Positions 2,412 through 50,960 of a stretch of 64,000 nt of DNA are shown in pieces. Within the stretch, counting starts at the first letter, position 1, and every line of letters begins with the position of its first letter. Both the position numbers and the translations under genes were made by a program. This DNA is from Coriolopsis trogii. Its lineage: Eukaryota; Basidiomycota; Agaricomycetes; Polyporales; Polyporaceae. Where the stretch lies: contig JAHYIO010000007.1 in assembly GCA_020543525.1 (NCBI GenBank), positions 310,001-374,000 on the forward strand, in the 5' to 3' direction. The notes beneath the pieces are model-generated. The model was not told the origin of the DNA. It worked only from the letters and a program-made list of their open reading frames with translations, and searched no databases.

Positions 2412-3844
2412 CTAGAATGCATCTACTATAGAGTCTGTGTGTAATGCCGTTGCAGAGACTCTCCAAAGGGCTTCGTCTAACAGCCCAAAGATTACCTTCT
2501 CGTCGTCTGCAACCGTAGTCGTAGCAACGTTCCATTTTGCACTCTCCTTTATAGCAGCCTCAAGCTGCTTGAGCTGCTCCGGAGACAGCGCCCGGCCGGT
2601 CGCGCTTTCTTCTTCCGTAATGCTCTCGAATCCCAGTTCGTGGAACTCGGCTAGCCGTCCAGATGCCCGAGAGCGATCCACCAGTGACACAGCAAGAGGA
2701 GGGTACAATTCACCGCGTCCCCTATCAAAGCTACGCGTCCGTAAACATAGGTCAGTAGCCTGGTATGGCCACTCACGCAAACCGAGCACACTGACCTTGG
2801 TGATCTCCTAAACATTGGGCTCCCAGCTCGAGAACCTTCGGACCCATTCGCCCCCCTCAACAGTCGACGTCCAGGGTCCCTCGTATATTGTGCCCTCTCC
2901 ATATACATTGTGCACGACAGCGGCGACGTTGATGATACATCCACCAGATATCGAATAGACCACGAGATCCTATGGTTCACTTACCCTCAGCATGACAGGA
3001 TACCGAGAGAGATTGCCAAGTGCGCACCCTATTTTCTCCATGTACTACGCTAACGGGTCGTACCACGTTTGAGATCGTACTCTGGCTATGGCACCAGCTG
3101 TCGACCACTTACCATTTCATATCTTTCATATTCAACGCGGGATGATTGGCATCCTCCTCTGACAAAGCGTCCTTGCGGATCAACGTCCTGTAAATCACAG
3201 AGCCGGAGAAGACGGCCGGGATATGGGATCTTTGCTTCGCAGCCTCGTCAGTCTTTCCCTCGGTGAGCGCTGCGTTCGGCAATTCGGCGTATATGGCTCT
3301 GGGAACAGCAAATTTCACGCCATCTGCTCCGATGAGCAAGTCGCATGTGAAGCTCGTCCCCTCTCGAAATTGCAGGGTGATAGATAGGGTCGGAGGCGGG
3401 GTCGGACTGCGAATATGGAGACGACCCTCTATCCCAGACGTCCCCGCGACGCTGGCGCAGATGTTCGAGCAAGATCCTCCGCAGCTCGGCGCTGCGGACA
3501 TCGAAGCTGTTATCTGTGGAGAGAGTTGATGGTATCACAATTGTTAGCTTCGTACTCGAACTTCAGAGTGACTCTGAAGAGGGCACGCCTTCAGATCTGA
3601 TGACGACCAACGGGACGCCCTCAGGTGGTTTTGTATCGCAATACCAGCCCCTACTTCTTCGAGCTGGGAGGCACCCTCATAGATAGTGCAATCCACTTCT
3701 GGAGCGAAAACATGCAGTGCAATGGCAATAGGCCGTTTGAGTCCGCGCCGCTGAGAGGAGTGCAAGTGGCAACAGCATCAAGCACCGACAACACGTGGGC
3801 AATTGATAGAGCACTCACATGATCGCAACGTTGAGTTTTGCCAT
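2412..3844 (-). pseudogene. Decayed FAD-dependent monooxygenase (salicylate hydroxylase-like)
   Basis: Fragments in order on the minus strand match a class A flavin monooxygenase. A start at 3844 is followed by a dinucleotide-binding strand and a short intron. The FAD-contacting strand ending Tyr-Glu and a Gly-Ala-Gly-Ile turn follow near 3650-3750. The Gly-Ala-Asp-Gly motif is near 3300 and the central sheet near 2830-2950. A degraded Gly-Asp-Ala motif is near 2720, and the C-terminal helices end at 2412. Damage is visible: the frame shifts right after the glycine-rich loop, roughly 60 residues expected before the substrate domain are absent, and an in-frame TAG at 2808-2810 stands where the family usually has Gln-Glu. 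A deletion directly after Gly-Asp-Ala removes the Gly-Ala-Gly-rich FAD pyrophosphate segment. In live relatives these enzymes hydroxylate aromatic acids with NAD(P)H. Several independent lesions make sequencing error unlikely as the sole cause. Confidence 0.72.
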
Positions 3845-5843
3845 GTTGTTCGTGTTTCCAAGGACGCAGTGGATGCGAGCCGCAGATGCGACAATGTGGC
3901 GAGCTGTCTATATGGCCGTCCACGTCAACAGGTGAATATCTTGCTTCAATTACCGAACTCCACATGAGAGCATCAACGTTCCACTGGGCAGGCAACTAAG
4001 CTCTGCTCTGCTCTGCTTCCATGTCGGGGACTCATGATGATCGTCCTTTCATGTTCAGATTTTGACACGGCGCCTTTGACCTGGACTCTGGATCGCATTA
4101 GATGTTGAGGCCTTGGATTGCTGAAGATTCACGCATGGGCAGGTGGTACTACTTGCAATACTGCTGATGGAGCTACCAGCGAGGCAGCCAGAAGGCGGTG
4201 TTGTGTATCACGAGATGCCTCATCGATAGGTGTCGCGTCAAGTCGAGTTTACTTCGCGACCCCGCTTGAGTCGGACAGCCTGATATATTTCCTGGTGAGT
4301 TTTACAGCGTAACTTTGATGATTGAATCGCGGTGTCAGACTTACATCGCACCGGTGAGCACTTCAAATTCCGCATGTCCAGTCCGGTTGACAGAGATATT
4401 TCCTCATGAAGGAAAAGGTCTATGCATGATATATGTCAGTCTGGCCATCTACTCATGGAATCGAAGGGTAAAGGACAGGAAAGATATGCCCACGCGGAGT
4501 GGTGTAAAACCAGCTTGAGAGCCGTCCGACTTGGGCCCTATCGAACAGTTTCACTGCACTGACTGTTCTATGTAGGTTGTAGGTGTCCTGACCATGAGCG
4601 AGGGGATGGTCACCCATAGGATAGAAAATTCTCGAATGGCAGGTACCGTGAATTTCAGTTGCGGCCACAGGTCTATTCGTGCCAGGCTATTGGCACATAG
4701 GAACAACCTTGAACAAAGCAGGCGGTGAGTGTCCGTGATCCTGGAGGAGCAGATGTTGAGCCTGGGGACATACACACGATGAACCCTTGTCTGATGTAGA
4801 ACTTGCGACTTCTGGCAAACGCTTACTATTGCTCGGCCTGGTTGTGACATCGTGGCAGGTCTAAGCGATACGCCTCGGCTTACTGGTAGTTAGTTAGTCT
4901 GTCCCGCGAGGCCCGGCCGCGGTGACGCCGCTCAGTGCTTGGAAAATGAGGTAACATTGAACATGGCTCTCGTACTCAGCAAATAAAATCGAGCTTTTCA
5001 CATAAGACAGAAGTGCTCTTGTGAGGTGGGAGGTAACTCAGCTTATAGGGAGACAGATGGGCTTGGACAGCGAGTTCAGTTGTGTCGCTAGCGCTGGCGC
5101 TACTCAAACGATCAGCGCTCAGCCTGAGTGGAAGAGTTACCATATTTGGTCACGAGGATGGAGCCTGGGAAAGAGCCTGGTAAACGCCGGGGAACCTTCA
5201 GGGCGTCGAGGACATCGTTCAGCACGATGTTCGACTGTTTTTGCTCTCGTACATCCACCTGGACTCCAAGGACGTCGCGCTGATTGCTTATCTTGTTGGG
5301 ATCCTCTAGCTTGCTGGTTCTCTTGCCAAATCCTCGAAGTCTACTCGTTGACGTTACTGGTTAACTCCACATATCTGCCATGGCACACACGTCGGGTTGT
5401 GGGCAGGACGAAGACATTGTCGCACTGGGGTAGGAGGAGGAGATGCGTGGGCAGGCCTTGCAGGATAAAGATGACTCGGGATGGATAGCCCAGGATTTCG
5501 AGGTATGTCTCCTGCTTGGGAGAGCCGTTCCAACCACTTGAAGAAACGTGTACGCGCAAAGGGATGTTCCCTCGCTGGCCCACTCGTCGACGACGGTCAA
5601 CCGCAAACATTCGCAGACGGCGGAGGAGGACGATACGGGCGTGTTGATCCGACACTGCCACCTGAGCCAAACAGGGCCATACAAATGCTGTCCGGCGTCT
5701 AACCGAGCCTGAACAAACGTCCATCGTCCATCTTGTTCTCTGTCCCTTTCTCCCGACCTCCGTCACAGAATAGCAGATCCTCTGGAGGGCCTGACGACGC
5801 CCAGATCTGCGAGGGACACCGGGGTCGAGCTCGGGATTCCTTC
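3845..5843. other. Gene-poor stretch, no supported gene
   Basis: About 2 kb between the decayed monooxygenase and the Yta7-type gene. Only short open frames without recognisable motifs are present on either strand. The part just before 5844 should hold the Yta7 promoter and 5' leader, but I see no clear TATA element. Minus-strand frames at 5341-5766 contain scattered cysteines but no start plus splice pattern that I would defend. It may contain further relics of the neighbouring pseudogene. Confidence 0.5.
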
Positions 5844-8800
5844 ATGAACTTCAACTTTCCAAGCGAACCCTTCGCTTTCCCCGAAAGCTATCATCCTCTA
5901 CCGGAACAGCAACCAGCCTATCCCATTCCTCAGCACCCCGTTCAACCCCTTCCACAACAATATACTCCCCAATATCCTGTCTACTCCCAACAGTACAACA
6001 ACTTCATTGACCCTCACCTCAACCTTCACCTTGACTCTCGCTTCAACTCTCGGTTCGCAAATCAATCCCAGCCGCTCCCACCTGCACCCCAGTACATCTC
6101 TGAAGCCGCACCTTCCCCGTCGACCAGCCTGCGGATCAAGCTTCCTCCAATGGCTCCCACTACCCGCCATGCGTCTCGTCATCAACCAATTTCTCCCACT
6201 TCTGGCTCGGAATACCACGAGAGCAACGCGTCCATGGAAGCAGAAGATGAGAATCCTGAACAAAAAGACGGCGATGGTGAAGACGCAGAGGACAAGCAAG
6301 AGCCTGTGAAGTATGAAACATCCTCCCGTGGACGTCGCATCGCAAAGAAGTCTTATAAAGAGTCGGGTACCGAAGAGGACGACGATCCTATTGACCTTCT
6401 GTCTAAAGGCAAGAGCAAACAAAGGACACCGAATGTTGACCAGGATGACGAGGGGGATGAGGCTAATCAGGCGACCGCTCGTTATGCGCTACGTCACACA
6501 CGCAGTCGTGGTGGCCATTCGAACAAGCTGAATGGTTTCATCGTGAGCGACGAAGAGGGTGGAGATGCTCAGGTGGGACGGTATTCAACGCGTAACAAGA
6601 GCAAGAACGTCGCTTCCCAGTCAAACGGCAACGGACGGTCTACGCAACGATCGAACGGTCGCTCCCAACCTCAAGCTTCTTCCTCGCGCAACACGCGCAA
6701 CCGAGTCACGACCCGTCGTACGCGTTCTTCAGCTCGTGACGAGGACGACGAAGACGGCTATGTCGACGAGCCCTCGTCTGGCTCTGCTGATGGTGAGGGA
6801 TCAATGGACGAGGCTCCCGTGACGTCCCCTGAGCCTGAACCAGAACCAGATGCAGATGGTGATGCGGACGGCGAAGGGGATGGAGACCCTGAAGCAGAGC
6901 AGGATGGGAAGCCATACGCGCTGCGGCAGAGAGCGAAGATCAACTACGCGATTCCTCCTCCGCTCGAGGAGATGCGGCCACCTCCAAAACCACGTCCGGG
7001 TGCGTCGCGGTCGCACGCTCGTAGTTCCAATCGACCGAAAGCTCCTGGATGGAGTGCAACGGGAGCTGAGCTAAGCAGATGGATGGGAGCTGCTGGGGAT
7101 GACTCGGTGAGTACGACTTATATGATCCGCGTCTCTTGCTCATTTCTTGGCAGGACTCGGATTACAACACCACACGCACACCACGTAAACCATTTGGTGG
7201 TATTGGAGGGGCTGGCGGTGGTGTATTTGCCGGTGGCGCTGCGGCTGCGGGAGGGTTCTTGCCTGGCGATCTAGCTGCCGCTGCTGGGACTCCGTCAAAT
7301 TTAGGCAAGGTGGGAGATGCAGGTATGTACGTCATGCATGTTGCAGTTTCATCGATCTCAGTGTTGCCTAGTTCTTGCGGATGCGGACCCTCTCGGTGTC
7401 AACCAGAATGTGACGTTCGACGAGGTCGGAGGCTTGGATGAACGTAAGTAGGCCATTCGCAGCTGTCCATGTTCGTTCCTTATTCTTCGCCAGACATTAA
7501 CTCGCTCAAGGAGATGACCCTGTTACCCCTCTTGTATCCTGAGGTATTCCAACGGTTCAATCTTACCCCTCCTCGTGGTGTCCTGTTCCACGGTCCTCCG
7601 GGTACGGGAAAGACGCTTCTCGCGCGTGCTCTGGCCGCAAGCTGTCGATCAAATGGGAAGGGGATATGTGAGTCTCACGCCGTCACCTCCATCGCATATG
7701 TCTCATCATCTCTCTAGCCTTCTTTATGCGCAAAGGAGCCGATTGCCTCTCAAAGTGGGTCGGTGAAGCCGAACGACAGCTTCGTCTACTTTTCGAAGAG
7801 GCCCGTAACCAGCAGCCCAGTATCATTTTCTTCGATGAAATCGACGGTCTCGCGCCAGTTCGTTCATCCAAGCAGGACCAGATACATGCGTCAATAGTGT
7901 CAACGTTACTCGCTCTCATGGACGGCATGGATGGTCGTGGACAAGTCGTTGTCATCGGGGCCACGAACCGTCCTGACGCTGTTGATCCTGCACTCCGACG
8001 GCCTGGTCGCTTCGACAGGGAGTTCTACTTCCCGTTACCGGGATTAGATGCACGGGAGCGGATTTTACGCATAATGACGAAGAATTGGGCGAGTTGGGAG
8101 GGGGAGAAGGGTGCGGAGAATGCGAAGGGTCTCGCAAAGCTGACGAAGGGTTATGGTGGCGCCGATCTGAGAGTGAGTCCTGATTCACATCGGTTTCACA
8201 TATGCCTTCACGTCGTACAATTGAGGCTGTTCCTTAGCGATATGGACGGCACATACTGATTCTTGCCTCTATAGGCACTCTGCACAGAAGCGGCTCTCAA
8301 CGCCGTGCAACGCAGATATCCTCAAATTTACAAGTCAAATGATCGCTTGCTCCTCAAACCTGAGACCATCGAAGTTGAGCTCCGGGATTTCATGATCTCG
8401 GTCAAGAGTATGTCATTGTCACTTTTTCTCATTCTGACATGTGCTTACGTTCCCTGCAGAGCTCGTGCCCTCTTCGGCTCGCTCGGTCTCATCTGCTGCT
8501 TCCCCTCTGCCCTCGCAACTCGTTCCTCTCTTGCAGGACCCTCTGGAAAAAATCAAGGAAGTCATCAGCAAGGTCTTGCCGGTTAGCAAGAAGCGGACAG
8601 CGCTGGAAGAAGCCGAGTGGGAGGATGAAAGCTCCGAGAATGCACTCGAACGAGAGCTTATGCTCCAATCGATGGAAACATTGCGCATATACCGTCCTAG
8701 AGTCGTCCTCCATGGTCCGGTGGGCATGGGTCAAGGATATATTGCCGCCGGCGCGCTGCATTTCCTAGAAGGATACCACGTTCAGAGCCTTGACCTTGGG

Positions 8801-10864
8801 ACCCTCATGTCCGATTCGACCAGAGTACGTTCCTTCGATGATTCGTCTGCACTGTCAATCTGACCCCTGGTTGTAGACTCCTGAGGCTGCGATTGTCCAA
8901 CTCTTTGTGGAGGCGAAGCGTCATCAGCCGTCTGTCATATATATACCTTCGCTTGTGGGATGGTGCGCCGCTGTCACAGAAACCGCAAGGACGACAGTGC
9001 GTGCTATGCTCGACTCCCTGGCGCCAACGGACCCAGTCTTGTTGCTTGCGGTGGTGGATGGACCGTTCACTGCACTCCCGAGGGATGTGCGGCAATGGTT
9101 TGGCCCTATTCGGGAGAATCGCGTCGCGCTCCTGTCTCCCAGTCCATCACAGCGAGAAGCGTTCTTTGACGGCTTGATCAAGGACGTCCGCCGCCCACCG
9201 AACGAATTTCCGGACGGAATCAAGCGTAGGAAGCGGGTGCTTGAGGAGCTGCCCATTGCTCCTCCGCTGGAACCGCGCCAACCTACTGCAGCCGAGCTCG
9301 CGCTACAAGAGGAGAACGATCAGAGGGTGATTACGCTGCTGAAGTACCGTCTGGGACCGATCCTCAGTGAGTTGAAGAGGAAGTTCAAGCGATTCACGAA
9401 GCGCGCGGCGGTAAGTTTCTTTGTTCTGCACCATTTCGGCGCCGTATTCATCTGCGTCCAAAGGAGGAGTACAACTACGACTTTAACGCGCCTCCACCGC
9501 CCCTTGTACCTCAGCCTCCGGCTCGGGTCGAACTTGTCTCTTCAACCGTTGAAGTGCATGCCGATGCCGACGGTGCCATGGAGGTCGTGAACGAGACACA
9601 AACGCAGGAAGTTGTAGATCTTACGATCGACAATCAAGTCCAGGAACAGCTAGTGCAGGAGCCGCCTCTCATAGACATGGATCTCGAGCGCATGAACGTC
9701 GAGTTGTACAAGGGGCGCTACTTGACTCCCGACGACTTCCTCGACGACATCCGGAAGATTGTGCACAACGCCCACGTGCGGATCAACGAAGATCCTGAGC
9801 GCTTGTTCAGGGCGCAGGCGATGCTTACAGCCGCCCAGGTCAGCATCCAAGACTTTGACCCGCAGTTCAGGCTAGAATGTCAACGCATGGCGGGGCGTGA
9901 GCGCAAGCGGCGTGAGGAGATCAGGAAAGAGAAGGAGAAAGAGAAAGCCGCTGAGCAGCCCGTGCAGAACGGCGAGTATGCACCTGGGACGAGGCGGAGC
10001 GCGCGCCATAATGGCAAGGGGCTCGAGATCTCAATCCAGGATCCAGCACTGCTCGAACGCAGGTTGAAGAGGGCGCGTTCGAACGGCGCGACCGCGACAC
10101 CTTCGGAGGACGAGAATGGCGAGCGGGTGTCGAAGAAGTCGAGGACGGAGGGTGAGGACGGGCCAATGTCGCCTTCCGCTGGGGGGCGGTCGATGAGCGT
10201 CAGGTTTGCTGATGAGGCGCAGCCTGCTGCGAGTTCGCCCGCTGCAGGCGGGAGCGGAGAAGCGTCGACGTCGGCGCAAGGCGTGTCTGAGCAGGAGCCT
10301 GAGCGTCGTACTGGGTTTGACCCGACCCTGTTGAACCCTGTATCGCCTGCGACGCCTGTTGACATGAGGTCAAGCGTTCCGATAGACCCGCCGGACAATT
10401 CCTTCAGCTCTCCAACACCTATGGATGCTCCCCTGCCACAATCGGAGCCTGTGCCTCAGCCTGCGGAGAACGACGTCAACGGACTTCCTGCGAATGCGCA
10501 AATCATTTTGGACGGAGATGGGGACCAGCCTATGGGGATCCAGGTGATGTCGGAAGCGCCCATGGAGGAATCGCAGCCAGAACAGCAACAGCCCATGGAA
10601 GTCGTCGAGCGATCACCAACGCCTCCTCTCCCTGACTTCCAGTTGGACGAGGACGCGCTTGCGGACCTAAAGACGTATCTCCGAGACGCGACTGGGTCGC
10701 TGAACGTCGAACAGCTGGAGCAGCTGCGCGCGACTTGCCTGGGCATCGTCTGGCGACACCGGTCGGAGTGGGACCGAACCGCATTGCTAAAGGAGCTGAA
10801 GCGGGAGGCGCAAGAGTTCGTGGAGGAGGTCTCGTTGGATGAGATGGATGTCCACTCTCCGTGA
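5844..10864 (+). CDS. YTA7: Yta7/ATAD2-type AAA+ ATPase with bromodomain-like region
   Basis: Nine exons: 5844-7106, 7154-7322, 7372-7443, 7494-7667, 7718-8172, 8275-8407, 8460-8824, 8877-9410, 9464-10864. The total is an exact multiple of three and predicts 1521 residues. The N-terminal ~480 residues are acidic and disordered. The first AAA+ module has Walker A GPPGTGKT (about 533), Walker B IIFFDEID (about 596) and the RRPGRFDRE arginine-finger region. The second AAA+ module has a degenerate Walker A (GPVGMGQGY) and is probably inactive, as is typical of the family. A degenerate bromodomain-like segment (about 1128-1180, [12 protein letters not shown]) follows, then a long charged tail. Yta7/ATAD2 proteins are nuclear hexameric ATPases that act on histone H3-H4 and nucleosome density during transcription and replication. 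ATG 5844 is the first in-frame ATG; the frame opens slightly upstream from a TTG only. Confidence 0.93.
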
Positions 10865-48078: not shown

Positions 48079-50682
48079 CTACCGCGGCATCATCTCCTCT
48101 TTCGCATTCCCGATAGCCTTCGACACCAACCCGGCGTGCAACGTCACCTCCCCCCCTTCGCTCGCGAGAATCGCACGCTTCAGGATCCGTTCGAGCGGCG
48201 TGACCTTGTACCGCGTCTGGTCGTCCACAGCCTGCAGCCCCGCGAACTCGAAAGGCGCAGGGACGCCGTGCCGATGGAACTCGTCCGGGTCCGGCGCGCG
48301 CACCTCTTCACTTTGCCTCGGATCGAACGGAGCCTCGCCGGTCTGCACCAGTGGGGTGTAGTCCGGGACGTCGACGAAGGAGAGGTTCAGTCTTGGGTCG
48401 GCGCCCACGATCAGGACGCGGTGGACCATCTCGATGCTGAACCGCAAGGACTTGCGCAGGTCGCGCGGGACTTCCTCGAGCCCGAGGAAGCGGTACGTCC
48501 AGATCGCGTCGGGTTCGTACTCGGCGGAGATCCTCGGGAGCTCCATCTGGATCCGGCCTAGGATCGCGTTCACGACGGTGGAGTAGGTCGTCAGCGTGGG
48601 CTTGCCGACGACGTCTGGGTAGAAGCGGAAGGCGCGGAGGGCGACGTAGGCCCCTGCGTAGTCGTATCTAGCCATGAACGCGCGGACGGCCTTGTGGAGA
48701 ACCATTGGCTCGAGCGCGGGCGAAACGGGAGGTTCACCTATGGGCTGCTGATCGGTGGGTTCACCTGTGGGCTGCTGATCGGTGGGTTCACCTGTGGGCT
48801 GCTGATCGGTGGGTTCCTGTGCGCGCTGTTGCTCCTTGTGGCAGAGTAGCAGGTCTCTGTAGACCGAACGTGCATCAGGCACGTCTTTGAGGTCTTTGAT
48901 CTTTCTTGATCGGCGGCGCTGGCGAGGAGTCTCGGTTGAAAGCCGGTGTAAGGCACGAAAGACGGTCGAGAAGGTGTGGGCGTCGGGAGTGGTGTACGAA
49001 TTGCGGTGGGTCATCATCTGACGGTAAATGGTGAAGACGACGTCGTAGTTGCGGCGACCGACTTCGTGGGCGAGGAGAGCGTTGAAGAAAGGAAGGTCTG
49101 GGAGGATGCTTGGATCTTCTTTCTGCATCTGAGTGAGTGCGTGCTCGTATACGGAGTAGGAGGGATTCGCGTTAGCGAGGTCGCGTAGGATAGTGGTGTA
49201 AGGGGACACGATCGATACTGCGGACCGGGGTCGAACGGGAGGAGGAGAAGGACGGGTGGACCAGTGGACGGCACCTAGCTTGTCACCGGCTCTGGCATGG
49301 GCTCTGACGATGTAGCTGGTGATGCGAATTGGAAGGTGGTAGTGGGCAGGACGCGTGGTGAGGTATGCTTCCACCACTCGGTCAATGAATTGGAGGGGAA
49401 CCTGGACGCCTTCTACGAGGACGCGAAGAAGGTCGTAGAAGGCGTCGTCGTCAAAGGACGGGCTGTTAAAAGCTTCAGAAACAGCCTCGAGGACGATGGG
49501 CTGGTGAGGAAGGTCGTCGATGAGCTTGACTATGTGCATTTGTGTACGAAGGGAGATGGAGGGAATGTAACCCTCGCGGGTCATGCGGGCATAGAGAATG
49601 GCAGCCTTCATGACATGGCCGTGGCGCAAGAAAAGGGAGACAGCAAACTGGAAGAGCTGAAAGCGAGACGGATTGTCGAGCTTGTGTTCATCGAGGGTCT
49701 TGTGGACGAACGCGGCGGCGACGGAGGGACCACTGCGGGCTAGATGATTTGGAAGGGCTACCTGGGCATGATTGAGGCTAGTGCTCCTCTCGACATGAGG
49801 TGTTGATACGAGGTGTGTGGAAGGGGCAAGTGCGGGAGAGGTCAGCGTTCTGGCGGATGTCGACGGCCGAGGAGAGAACAGTGTGCGGGCTGCTGCATGG
49901 CGGAGGCGGAGGAGGGCGAGGGTCGCTATCTTGGCCTCGGTCGATGCGGACGCCTTCTGCCAGTGCTTGAGAGTCAATGACGCGTGGATGAGTGAAGAGA
50001 GGGCGACGGAGATGCGGAAGCTGCGAGCGACGACGAGCAGAGCCCAAACGACGGTCAGAACACAAGGCGCTAGGGCGCGGGGAATTTGGTCGGGGTAATT
50101 AACAACCAGCTAATTAACTTGGTAAATTAGCCGTAAATTACCCGTCAAGCAGAGAAACCCCAAAATGACCATGTAAATTTGAGTCAATTAGCATGCGTGG
50201 GCGAGGCAAATCCTAGCTGGTAGAGAAGGTTCTAACCCACTATTGCCCTCACATAGTACTCTCATGACCAAGAAAGAAGACCCTGAGGTGAGCATACCCG
50301 GCGCCCGCAGCGCGTGACTTTTCGCCGGCAGATAGGACAACTTTCTTCACTCTCTAGAGCTTTGAGCGTCTGCGAGGGTTAAGCGCCGGTTAGCCTCCCT
50401 GCTCCGCCCAAGTCTGTCACACTATCAGGTTTCTCTACCTCCAATTATTACACCCAGGTGTTGGGGAGATCAATGAGGTATTATGGGACAAGAACATGGG
50501 GACCCTTGACCCGTTCTCTGCGTATACATGGCGTAAGCGCCCATGTGTCGGTAAATTACGGTAAATTACCTAGGTAAATTTGCCCCTCCTGAGACCCTCC
50601 GGGTAATTTACCGGTCAAACAGACCGCCAGGTCTAATTACCCGCACCCTACAAGGCGCGGAGTCGGGGGCGCGTATTGCCAT
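48079..50682 (-). CDS. Mitochondrial PPR-like protein interrupted by a hAT-like element
   Basis: The body is one long minus-strand frame, 50069-48079, with no in-frame ATG in its first ~120 codons and an upstream stop inside the inserted element. The only fitting ATG is at 50682-50680, beyond the element. Model: exon 1 50682-50652 (31 nt), intron 50651-50070 (582 nt, GTAGGG...CCCTAG), exon 2 50069-48079; 2022 nt, 673 residues. Without the element and one 8-bp duplicate the frame is also intact (671 residues). The N-terminus is rich in Ala, Arg, Ser and Leu and lacks acids, as in mitochondrial targeting. The body has helix-pair repeats such as FLRHGHVMKAAILYARMTRE and HEVGRRNYDVVFTIYRQMMT, typical of PPR proteins that bind organellar RNA. 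The assignment to PPR is moderate. Whether the gene is expressed depends on splicing of the element. Confidence 0.68.
48731..48811 (-). repeat. Three tandem 27-bp coding repeats
   Basis: Three near-identical 27-bp copies, differing by one base, encode Glu-Pro-Thr-Asp-Gln-Gln-Pro-x-Gly-type 9-residue units in the PPR-like protein, followed by a partial fourth. They sit in a hydrophilic linker, stay in frame and probably vary in number between strains. Confidence 0.85.
50063..50070. repeat. Target-site duplication, left copy
   Basis: CAAGGCGC directly abuts the TAGGG end of the element at 50071 and is repeated exactly at 50651-50658. An 8-bp duplication is the hallmark of hAT-superfamily insertion. 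Confidence 0.88.
50071..50650. mobile_element. Non-autonomous hAT-like DNA element (MITE), 580 bp
   Basis: The ends are imperfect inverted repeats. Reading inward from each side, both start TAGGG and about 16 of the first 21 bases agree (left TAGGGCGCGGGGAATT, right complement TAGGGTGCGGGTAATT). A perfect 8-bp duplication flanks them. Inside both ends lie repeated GGTAAATTAC-type words in both orientations (50115-50145 and 50550-50615), resembling subterminal transposase-binding repeats. The centre is non-coding, with no transposase motif, so movement would need an enzyme from elsewhere. 8-bp duplication plus a short TIR of this kind points to hAT. The element lies in the start region of the PPR-like gene. 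On that gene's strand its junctions form GT and AG dinucleotides, so it may be read as an intron. Confidence 0.85.
50651..50658. repeat. Target-site duplication, right copy
   Basis: CAAGGCGC follows the element's last base at 50650 and matches the left copy exactly. Its first base supplies the G of the candidate GT splice donor on the minus strand. Confidence 0.88.
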
Positions 50683-50960
50683 AGAGGGAAGTGTGACGGA
50701 GGCGCAGCAGTGTGACGGGGCGGTCTAGATTGTGGTTCGACTGGCGCGAGATATGGTAGACGCCCGCTGCACCTGGACGTCGGGGCGCGCGTGCTCTGCT
50801 CTGTTCTGTGCAGCTGCTGAGCCCGAGTCTGAGCCCGAGCCCGAAGCGGCCACCGACGTCCTCACCACCACACGCTACCGCACAACGACCGACTCGACTC
50901 TCCCACTGCTCTTGCCCTACCGCCGTCTGCTCCGTCGCAGGCCGACTCGCATCGGACGCC
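50683..50960. promoter_or_regulatory. Short divergent promoter region (PPR-like gene / 5-phosphatase)
   Basis: 278 bp between the proposed minus-strand ATG (50682) and the plus-strand ATG (50961). It is very GC- and CT-rich towards the phosphatase start, with no TATA element. Before the element inserted, the two genes would have been a tight head-to-head pair. Confidence 0.5.

Follow-up and report, generated by a model that had tools for sequence, protein, structure and literature searches.

A young hAT-like MITE near the putative start of a PPR-type gene in Coriolopsis trogii and the splice-like dinucleotides at its borders

Does a transposable element that separates a putative start codon from the rest of its gene, with GT at one border and AG at the other, represent an intron in the making or an ordinary insertion whose borders resemble splice sites by chance? 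The question arises in a stretch of 64,000 nucleotides of the Coriolopsis trogii genome (contig JAHYIO010000007.1, positions 310,001 to 374,000), here called the window, in which the initial annotation had proposed that a hAT-like MITE may act as a newborn intron of a minus-strand gene, with a recent knock-out as the alternative. As set out below, the locus is probably explained by an ordinary young insertion.

The insertion and its host gene

The hAT-like MITE occupies 580 bp on the minus strand (50071 to 50650), on which it opens with the TAGGGTGCGGG end, and is bounded by a perfect 8-bp target-site duplication, CAAGGCGC, with the left copy at 50063 to 50070 and the right copy at 50651 to 50658. 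The terminal inverted repeats, TAGGGCGCGGGGAATT (50071 to 50086, plus strand) and TAGGGTGCGGGTAATT (50635 to 50650, minus strand), are of the TAGGG type and identical at 14 of 16 bases. When the coordinates were re-read, the element, its TAGGG ends and the perfect duplication all proved to have been described correctly. The longest open stretch inside this copy is 64 codons, and the GC content of the MITE is 50% compared with 61% for the adjoining coding stretch. On the minus strand, the order is ATG GCA ATA CGC GCC CCC GAC TCC GCG CCT TG, the 580-bp MITE, the second GCGCCTTG, and an open frame of 663 codons, with the MITE at codon 11 of the frame of the PPR-type gene; ten codons (MAIRAPDSAP) and one base precede the proposed donor, as had been claimed. 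The downstream frame, reported as stop-free over about 660 codons, is indeed open over its 663, and it has no early in-frame ATG; the ATG-less span is about 150 codons rather than the 120 given, the first in-frame ATG being at 49611. Reading without splicing from ATG 50682 reaches a stop after 24 codons. Both length classes of the MITE (580 and 574 bp) give multiples of three together with an 8-bp duplication (588 and 582), so the insertion of the MITE causes no frame shift.

The host frame (48079 to 50062, minus strand) was assigned to a PPR-type gene by its homologs and by a PPR_2 match with an E-value of 1.5e-6, just under the family cut-off. The protein is 40-48% identical to 19 of the 20 homologs found and 31% identical to the remaining one, and the named PPR homologs belong to polypores such as Ganoderma, Cerioporus, Trametes, and Fibroporia. 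A genome search for a further, MITE-free copy of the PPR gene gave a single match, the gene itself, and no empty allele. The gene also contains an in-frame 27-bp tandem repeat of 3.2 copies (48731 to 48816), encoding EPTDQQPTG units. Two predicted features were discarded: a 3′ intron at 48082, where by eye the open frame ends in AKEEMMPR and the homologs in AKKEMV or AKREMV, and a start inside the MITE at 50172, which would be a three-base first exon. The putative first coding stretch (50652 to 50682, minus strand) begins at the nearest upstream ATG and is in frame with the gene. Between the MITE and the predicted start of the divergent neighbour (50961), the minus strand holds two ATGs, at 50952 and 50682; the former lies below the neighbour's start, and a stop closes its frame after 11 codons. 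ATG 50682 is taken here as the putative, not certain, start of the PPR-type gene.

A small young family and its classification

A search of the 38.8-Mb genome returned at least four matches to the MITE, all of full length (574-580 bp), copy counts from the genome search being lower bounds. Relative to the copy in the window (C7), identity is 99% for C28, 98% for C4, and 97% for C20. Each of the four copies carries TAGGG at both ends and its own perfect 8-bp duplication, and these duplications are four different sequences, which certainly places the insertion beyond chance. The copies differ pairwise at 3 to 10 positions per 574-580 aligned bases, and with four copies found and so few differences the family is small and young; the C7 copy is itself young, because its siblings with their own duplications are 97-99% identical to it and it has two private differences. 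At position 50390 (MITE base 261), a private change gives the branch-point consensus CTAAC, where the three sibling copies have CTACC. A search with the 16-nt ends, allowing up to two mismatches, gave 27 matches (24 in the reversed control), the eight exact ones being the ends of the four copies. A subterminal-motif search gave 12 matches (four in the reversed control), of which four exact and three inexact ones lie in MITE copies and five elsewhere.

Coding sequence is interrupted by two or three of the four copies. The C20 copy interrupts, in antisense orientation, a coding exon close to the end of a CBF/NF-Y histone-fold gene. An earlier, loose tblastn search (E up to 10) had matched 63 of 112 homologs just after the MITE, and the upstream side was retested because just one of the 112 matched just before it. 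The 18-residue upstream flank, LLPWLEPESAAPGKRRPR, was matched by 51 of the 112 homologs better than 20 self-shuffles, and both flanks (18 residues before and 47 after the MITE) were matched by 44. In 39 of the 40 listed among these 44, no more than 26 residues separate the two matches (109 in the other one), and this proximity indicates that those homologs have no insert at the C20 site. The C28 copy lies in sense orientation in an open frame whose WD40 match is weak and below the Pfam cut-off, and the MITE places an in-frame TAG there at its first base. No homologs of this frame were found among 508 candidates, and its standing as a putative gene draws on that match and on the open frame continuing past the MITE (by eye). 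The C4 copy is intergenic, and the stretch around it lacks long frames on both sides. By eye, it is flanked by two small genes for predicted secreted proteins (C4:1193600-1203500, 2921-3848 and 5907-6904), which resemble each other and are apparently a tandem duplicate.

The short inverted ends of hAT elements start with the consensus YAGGG, and the 8-bp duplications and TAGGG ends of all four copies, together with small size and a lack of coding capacity, are features of hAT-type MITEs. The genome contains 15 matches to the hAT dimerisation domain and 36 to the KDZ transposase family. No autonomous hAT with matching paired ends was found within about 1.5 kb of the 15 hAT-domain loci and 12 of the 36 KDZ loci, a radius at which a partner with farther or more diverged ends could be missed; the partial matches were one unpaired TAGGGYGC-type match in each of three loci and an isolated subterminal motif. 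Since no matching autonomous hAT was found, we label the element hAT-like rather than hAT. The classification made in the initial annotation is thus fair, with a real MITE that has an 8-bp duplication in a basidiomycete, and unproven as regards the superfamily, no same-ended transposase having been found in the loci read; according to the available part of PMC12730594, 8 bp is the usual duplication of hAT elements and is also that of Zisupton. Compared with hAT-type MITEs such as mar in Drosophila (PMC3517528, as far as the accessible text describes it), the element is likewise short, has inverted ends and no coding capacity, and shares the 8-bp duplication usual for hAT (PMC12730594); it differs in the absence of a matching autonomous hAT from the loci read and in the number of copies found, just four. 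The fungal Zisupton/Dileera (KDZ) transposons treated in the same portion of PMC12730594 also make 8-bp duplications and are represented by the 36 KDZ matches of this genome, yet the 12 KDZ loci read, each to a distance of about 1.5 kb, all lacked the paired ends of the MITE. An apparent hAT transposon lies about 220 bp downstream of the C28 MITE (C28:2964500-2974400, about 5427-9854), with an 8-bp duplication CTTTATCC, inverted ends TAGTGATTGAAAGT identical at 14 of 14 bases, and a C-terminal hAT dimerisation domain; its ends differ from those of the MITE.

Splice sites at and near the borders

The dinucleotides described in the initial annotation are present on the minus strand, with GT at 50651/50650 and AG at 50071/50070, and excision of the 582 nt between them keeps the frame and adds two codons (588 inserted − 582 removed = 6). 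As the MITE ends in TA...TA, GT...AG borders result whenever the sense strand of the duplication has G as both its first and its last base. The MITE was inserted in silico 600 times across 50 predicted exons, each 300 nt or longer, and GT...AG borders arose in 32 cases (5.3%), all of them in frame owing to the same arithmetic; a second simulation gave 32 in-frame border cases per 500 insertions in each orientation. The argument that frame preservation is striking was rejected, since border splicing of this MITE always keeps the frame. Also rejected was the argument that the intact downstream frame proves splicing, since at two private differences per 580 bp few disabling changes would be expected in 2 kb. 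At the 5.3% rate, the probability of at least one border GT...AG is 15% among the three open-frame copies and 35% among the eight strand readings. On the gene strand, the borders read GT/AG in C7, TT/AT in C28, and GT/AA in C20, and those of the intergenic C4 copy read GT/AA in the element sense. The expectation that genome copies would coincide with introns bearing GT/AG at the duplication borders was not borne out: of the three copies other than C7, none combines GT at one border with AG at the other on either strand, and no common splice geometry was seen. Border GT/AG thus occurs in one of three copies within open frames, none of the four copies is established as an intron, and the coincidence is not clearly beyond chance.

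Splice sites were scored with a splice and gene model trained on 195 kb of the genome, on its own predictions (21 genes, 135 introns), with branch-point and start-context scores that are ad hoc. Predictions in the PPR locus contributed four of these introns, which were removed for rank counts, 500-insertion runs, and shuffles (131 introns) and retained for the 600-insertion run, the rankings of 179 and 181 models, and the comparison of the donor with all GTs. Predicted introns have a median length of 56 nt (n = 135), and two of 131 reach 500 nt, compared with the 582 nt proposed; donors are GTGAGT, GTATGT, GTACGT, or GTAAGT in 66 of 135, and acceptors end in CAG or TAG in 129 of 135. The proposed border donor (50650 to 50651, minus strand; CTT/GTAGGG, the slash marking the junction) is weak, as just two of 131 model introns score at or below it and 30% of all GTs on the minus strand score at least as high. 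The border acceptor (50070 to 50071, minus strand; CCCTAG/CG) is within range, with 22 of 131 model introns scoring no higher. Stronger donors lie on the same strand at MITE base 5 (50645 to 50646; AGG/GTGCGGGT, GTGCGG), in frame with an acceptor ending at 50110, and at MITE base 27 (50623 to 50624; GCG/GTCTGT), in frame with the acceptor ending at 50070. The acceptor inside the MITE (50110 to 50111, minus strand; CTAAT...TTAATTAG/CTGG) has 16 of 131 model introns scoring at or below it.

At the C7 site, four in-frame donor-acceptor pairs lie within 30 nt of the borders, and by splice-site and length scores the border pair is last of the four, about 4 natural-log units below the best; the better pairs use donors inside the MITE at 50624 (GTCTGT), 50646 (GTGCGG), or 50640 with acceptors ending at 50070 or 50110. 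When the coding score of the retained residues and farther downstream acceptors were included (181 models, single-intron or intronless), 50646/50110 ranked 37, 50640/50110 ranked 45, the border pair 51, and 50624/50070 ranked 66; the order of the pairs shifts once the coding score is added, so no single splice choice stands out. Of 600 simulated insertions, 42 had an in-frame pair as good as or better than the best one of the C7 site, and of 500 simulated sense insertions, 188 had 50646/50110 as their best pair. In-frame splicing of fair quality (a score of at least −4.5) was predicted in 272 of 500 sense and 70 of 500 antisense insertions and in 266 of 1,800 insertions of shuffled elements; tightening the limit to −3.1 gave 45 of 500 sense, 21 of 500 antisense, and 125 of 1,800 shuffled insertions, and five of the 30 shuffles then clearly exceeded the MITE. 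At 100 fixed sites, dinucleotide shuffles equalled or exceeded the sense strand in 6 of 200 cases for in-frame splicing frequency, with a threshold chosen once initial results had been viewed and with both orientations tried, and in 2 of 200 for the median score. The counts from the 600-insertion, 500-insertion, and shuffle runs cover acceptors no farther than 30 nt beyond the second duplication. The near-terminal splice sites are identical in all four copies. These predictions are suggestive only of a sense-oriented MITE that carries its own near-terminal donor and acceptor, with in-frame splicing predicted above most shuffles.

Readings of the locus and known intron-making elements

The explanation that we consider probable is an ordinary young insertion with a border GT...AG that arose by chance. 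A non-autonomous hAT-like DNA transposon of the four-copy family would have jumped recently into the 5′ coding end of the PPR-type gene, duplicating 8 bp on insertion, and a duplication starting and ending with G would have made GT...AG by chance. The transcript may then be read through to the stop codon noted above or be spliced poorly or in mixed fashion, and on either outcome the allele would most likely be loss-of-function or N-terminally altered. This is argued for by the C20 copy inside a conserved CBF/NF-Y exon, by the weak border donor, and by a length of 582 nt against a median of 56; counted against it are the frame intact over 663 codons, though few disabling changes would be expected at such an age, the best-pair count of 42 of 600, the sense-strand shuffles at 6 of 200, and an N-terminal frame that has no homolog support. 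A newly gained intron of 582 nt whose ends coincide exactly with the duplication borders, leaving two codons added, has the GT, the AG, the kept frame, an acceptor within the range of model introns, and by eye a candidate branch site, TTAAT, lying 30 nt above that acceptor; it is nevertheless very unlikely, being the worst of the four nearby in-frame pairs by splice-site and length scores and third of the four once the coding score is added, with a donor below 129 of 131 model introns, a chance expectation of about 5%, no counterpart in the three other copies, and stronger in-frame donors at MITE bases 5 and 27. The recent knock-out with a coincidental GT/AG, which the initial annotation had offered as its alternative, therefore fits better than the newborn intron at the borders.

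Productive splicing through the MITE's own sites in the manner of Ds (donor 50646 or 50624 and acceptor 50110 or 50070, leaving 17 or 11 extra codons) is tenable though doubtful. The near-terminal pairs exceed the border pair by the roughly 4 units given above, the sites are common to the four copies, 50646/50110 did well in the sense insertions, and few shuffles matched the sense-oriented MITE; however, the threshold was post hoc, the coding score puts 50646/50110 above the border pair and 50624/50070 below it, introns of at least 500 nt are rare among the predictions, and the sense C28 copy meets TAG at its first base in the WD40-like frame, with just two poor in-frame pairs. The broader proposition, a polypore hAT-like MITE with its own near-terminal splice sites whose sense exon insertions would be removed as young introns, is unlikely. 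That the MITE lies in a 5′ leader or an older intron, with coding starting elsewhere and ATG 50682 not being the gene start, is distinctly unlikely. No homolog support was found for the N-terminal part of the PPR frame (its first 100 or so codons), the 20 codons directly after the MITE have a non-coding score of −2.8, and an acceptor ending at 50021 scores well and has a CTGAC branch. With the MITE removed and the flanks joined, the intronless model from ATG 50682 is sixth of 179, and in the real locus 18 of 181 models, with other starts, outscore every model from this ATG. The five higher joined-flank models, however, start at ATG 50989 or 50962, positions that fall within the coding start of the neighbour or overlap it, and require introns of 265-376 nt there, whereas ATG 50682 is the nearest upstream, in frame, and intronless once the MITE is removed. 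Across these readings, disruption or an altered N-terminus is the most likely consequence of the insertion.

The closest parallel is maize Ds, a short non-autonomous element with an 8-bp duplication, a TAGGG-type end, insertions into exons, and splice sites at or near its ends, the splicing of which has been demonstrated with RNA; Ds insertions, belonging to the hAT superfamily, were reportedly found by Giroux et al. in 1994 to be processed as introns. The C7 MITE resembles Ds in its short non-autonomous form, duplication, type of end, and insertion into an exon, and has candidate splice sites at or near its ends; it differs in that Ds splicing is proven at the RNA level, whereas the MITE is read from sequence, with border GT/AG in one of three open-frame copies. 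In the accessible part of PMC3443670, transposon insertion figures among the ways in which introns are gained, Oryza, Drosophila, Oikopleura, and Zea supplying cases, and Giroux 1994 is cited there on Ds. The introner survey PMC9860276, in its available portion, covers 175 introner-containing genomes with families of 5 to more than 2,000 copies, includes an Aureococcus case with an 8-bp duplication and added codons, and names Pezizomycotina as the sole fungal introner group, there without duplications or inverted repeats. Introners in that portion and the C7 MITE are alike in being MITE-like, in the 8-bp duplication and its possible use for splice sites, and in the added codons; unlike the MITE, with its at least four copies and no repeated splice geometry, introner families are introns. 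Introner-like elements are reported from ascomycetes and few lineages overall in what is available of PMC4457414 and PMC8476143, and no basidiomycete MITE acting as an intron was seen among the open-licence literature matches listed.

If the MITE were spliced, Basidiomycota would have an intron-making element that bears duplications and inverted repeats, in contrast to the fungal introners (Pezizomycotina) of PMC9860276, described in its available portion as free of transposon signatures, and a basidiomycete MITE caught becoming an intron would allow a direct view of intron birth. The present yield is a young MITE family of few copies, some of which interrupt coding exons, together with a baseline of 32 in 600 for the accidental in-frame GT...AG rate of a TA...TA-ended MITE of this length, which calls for caution in intron calls made from sequence only.
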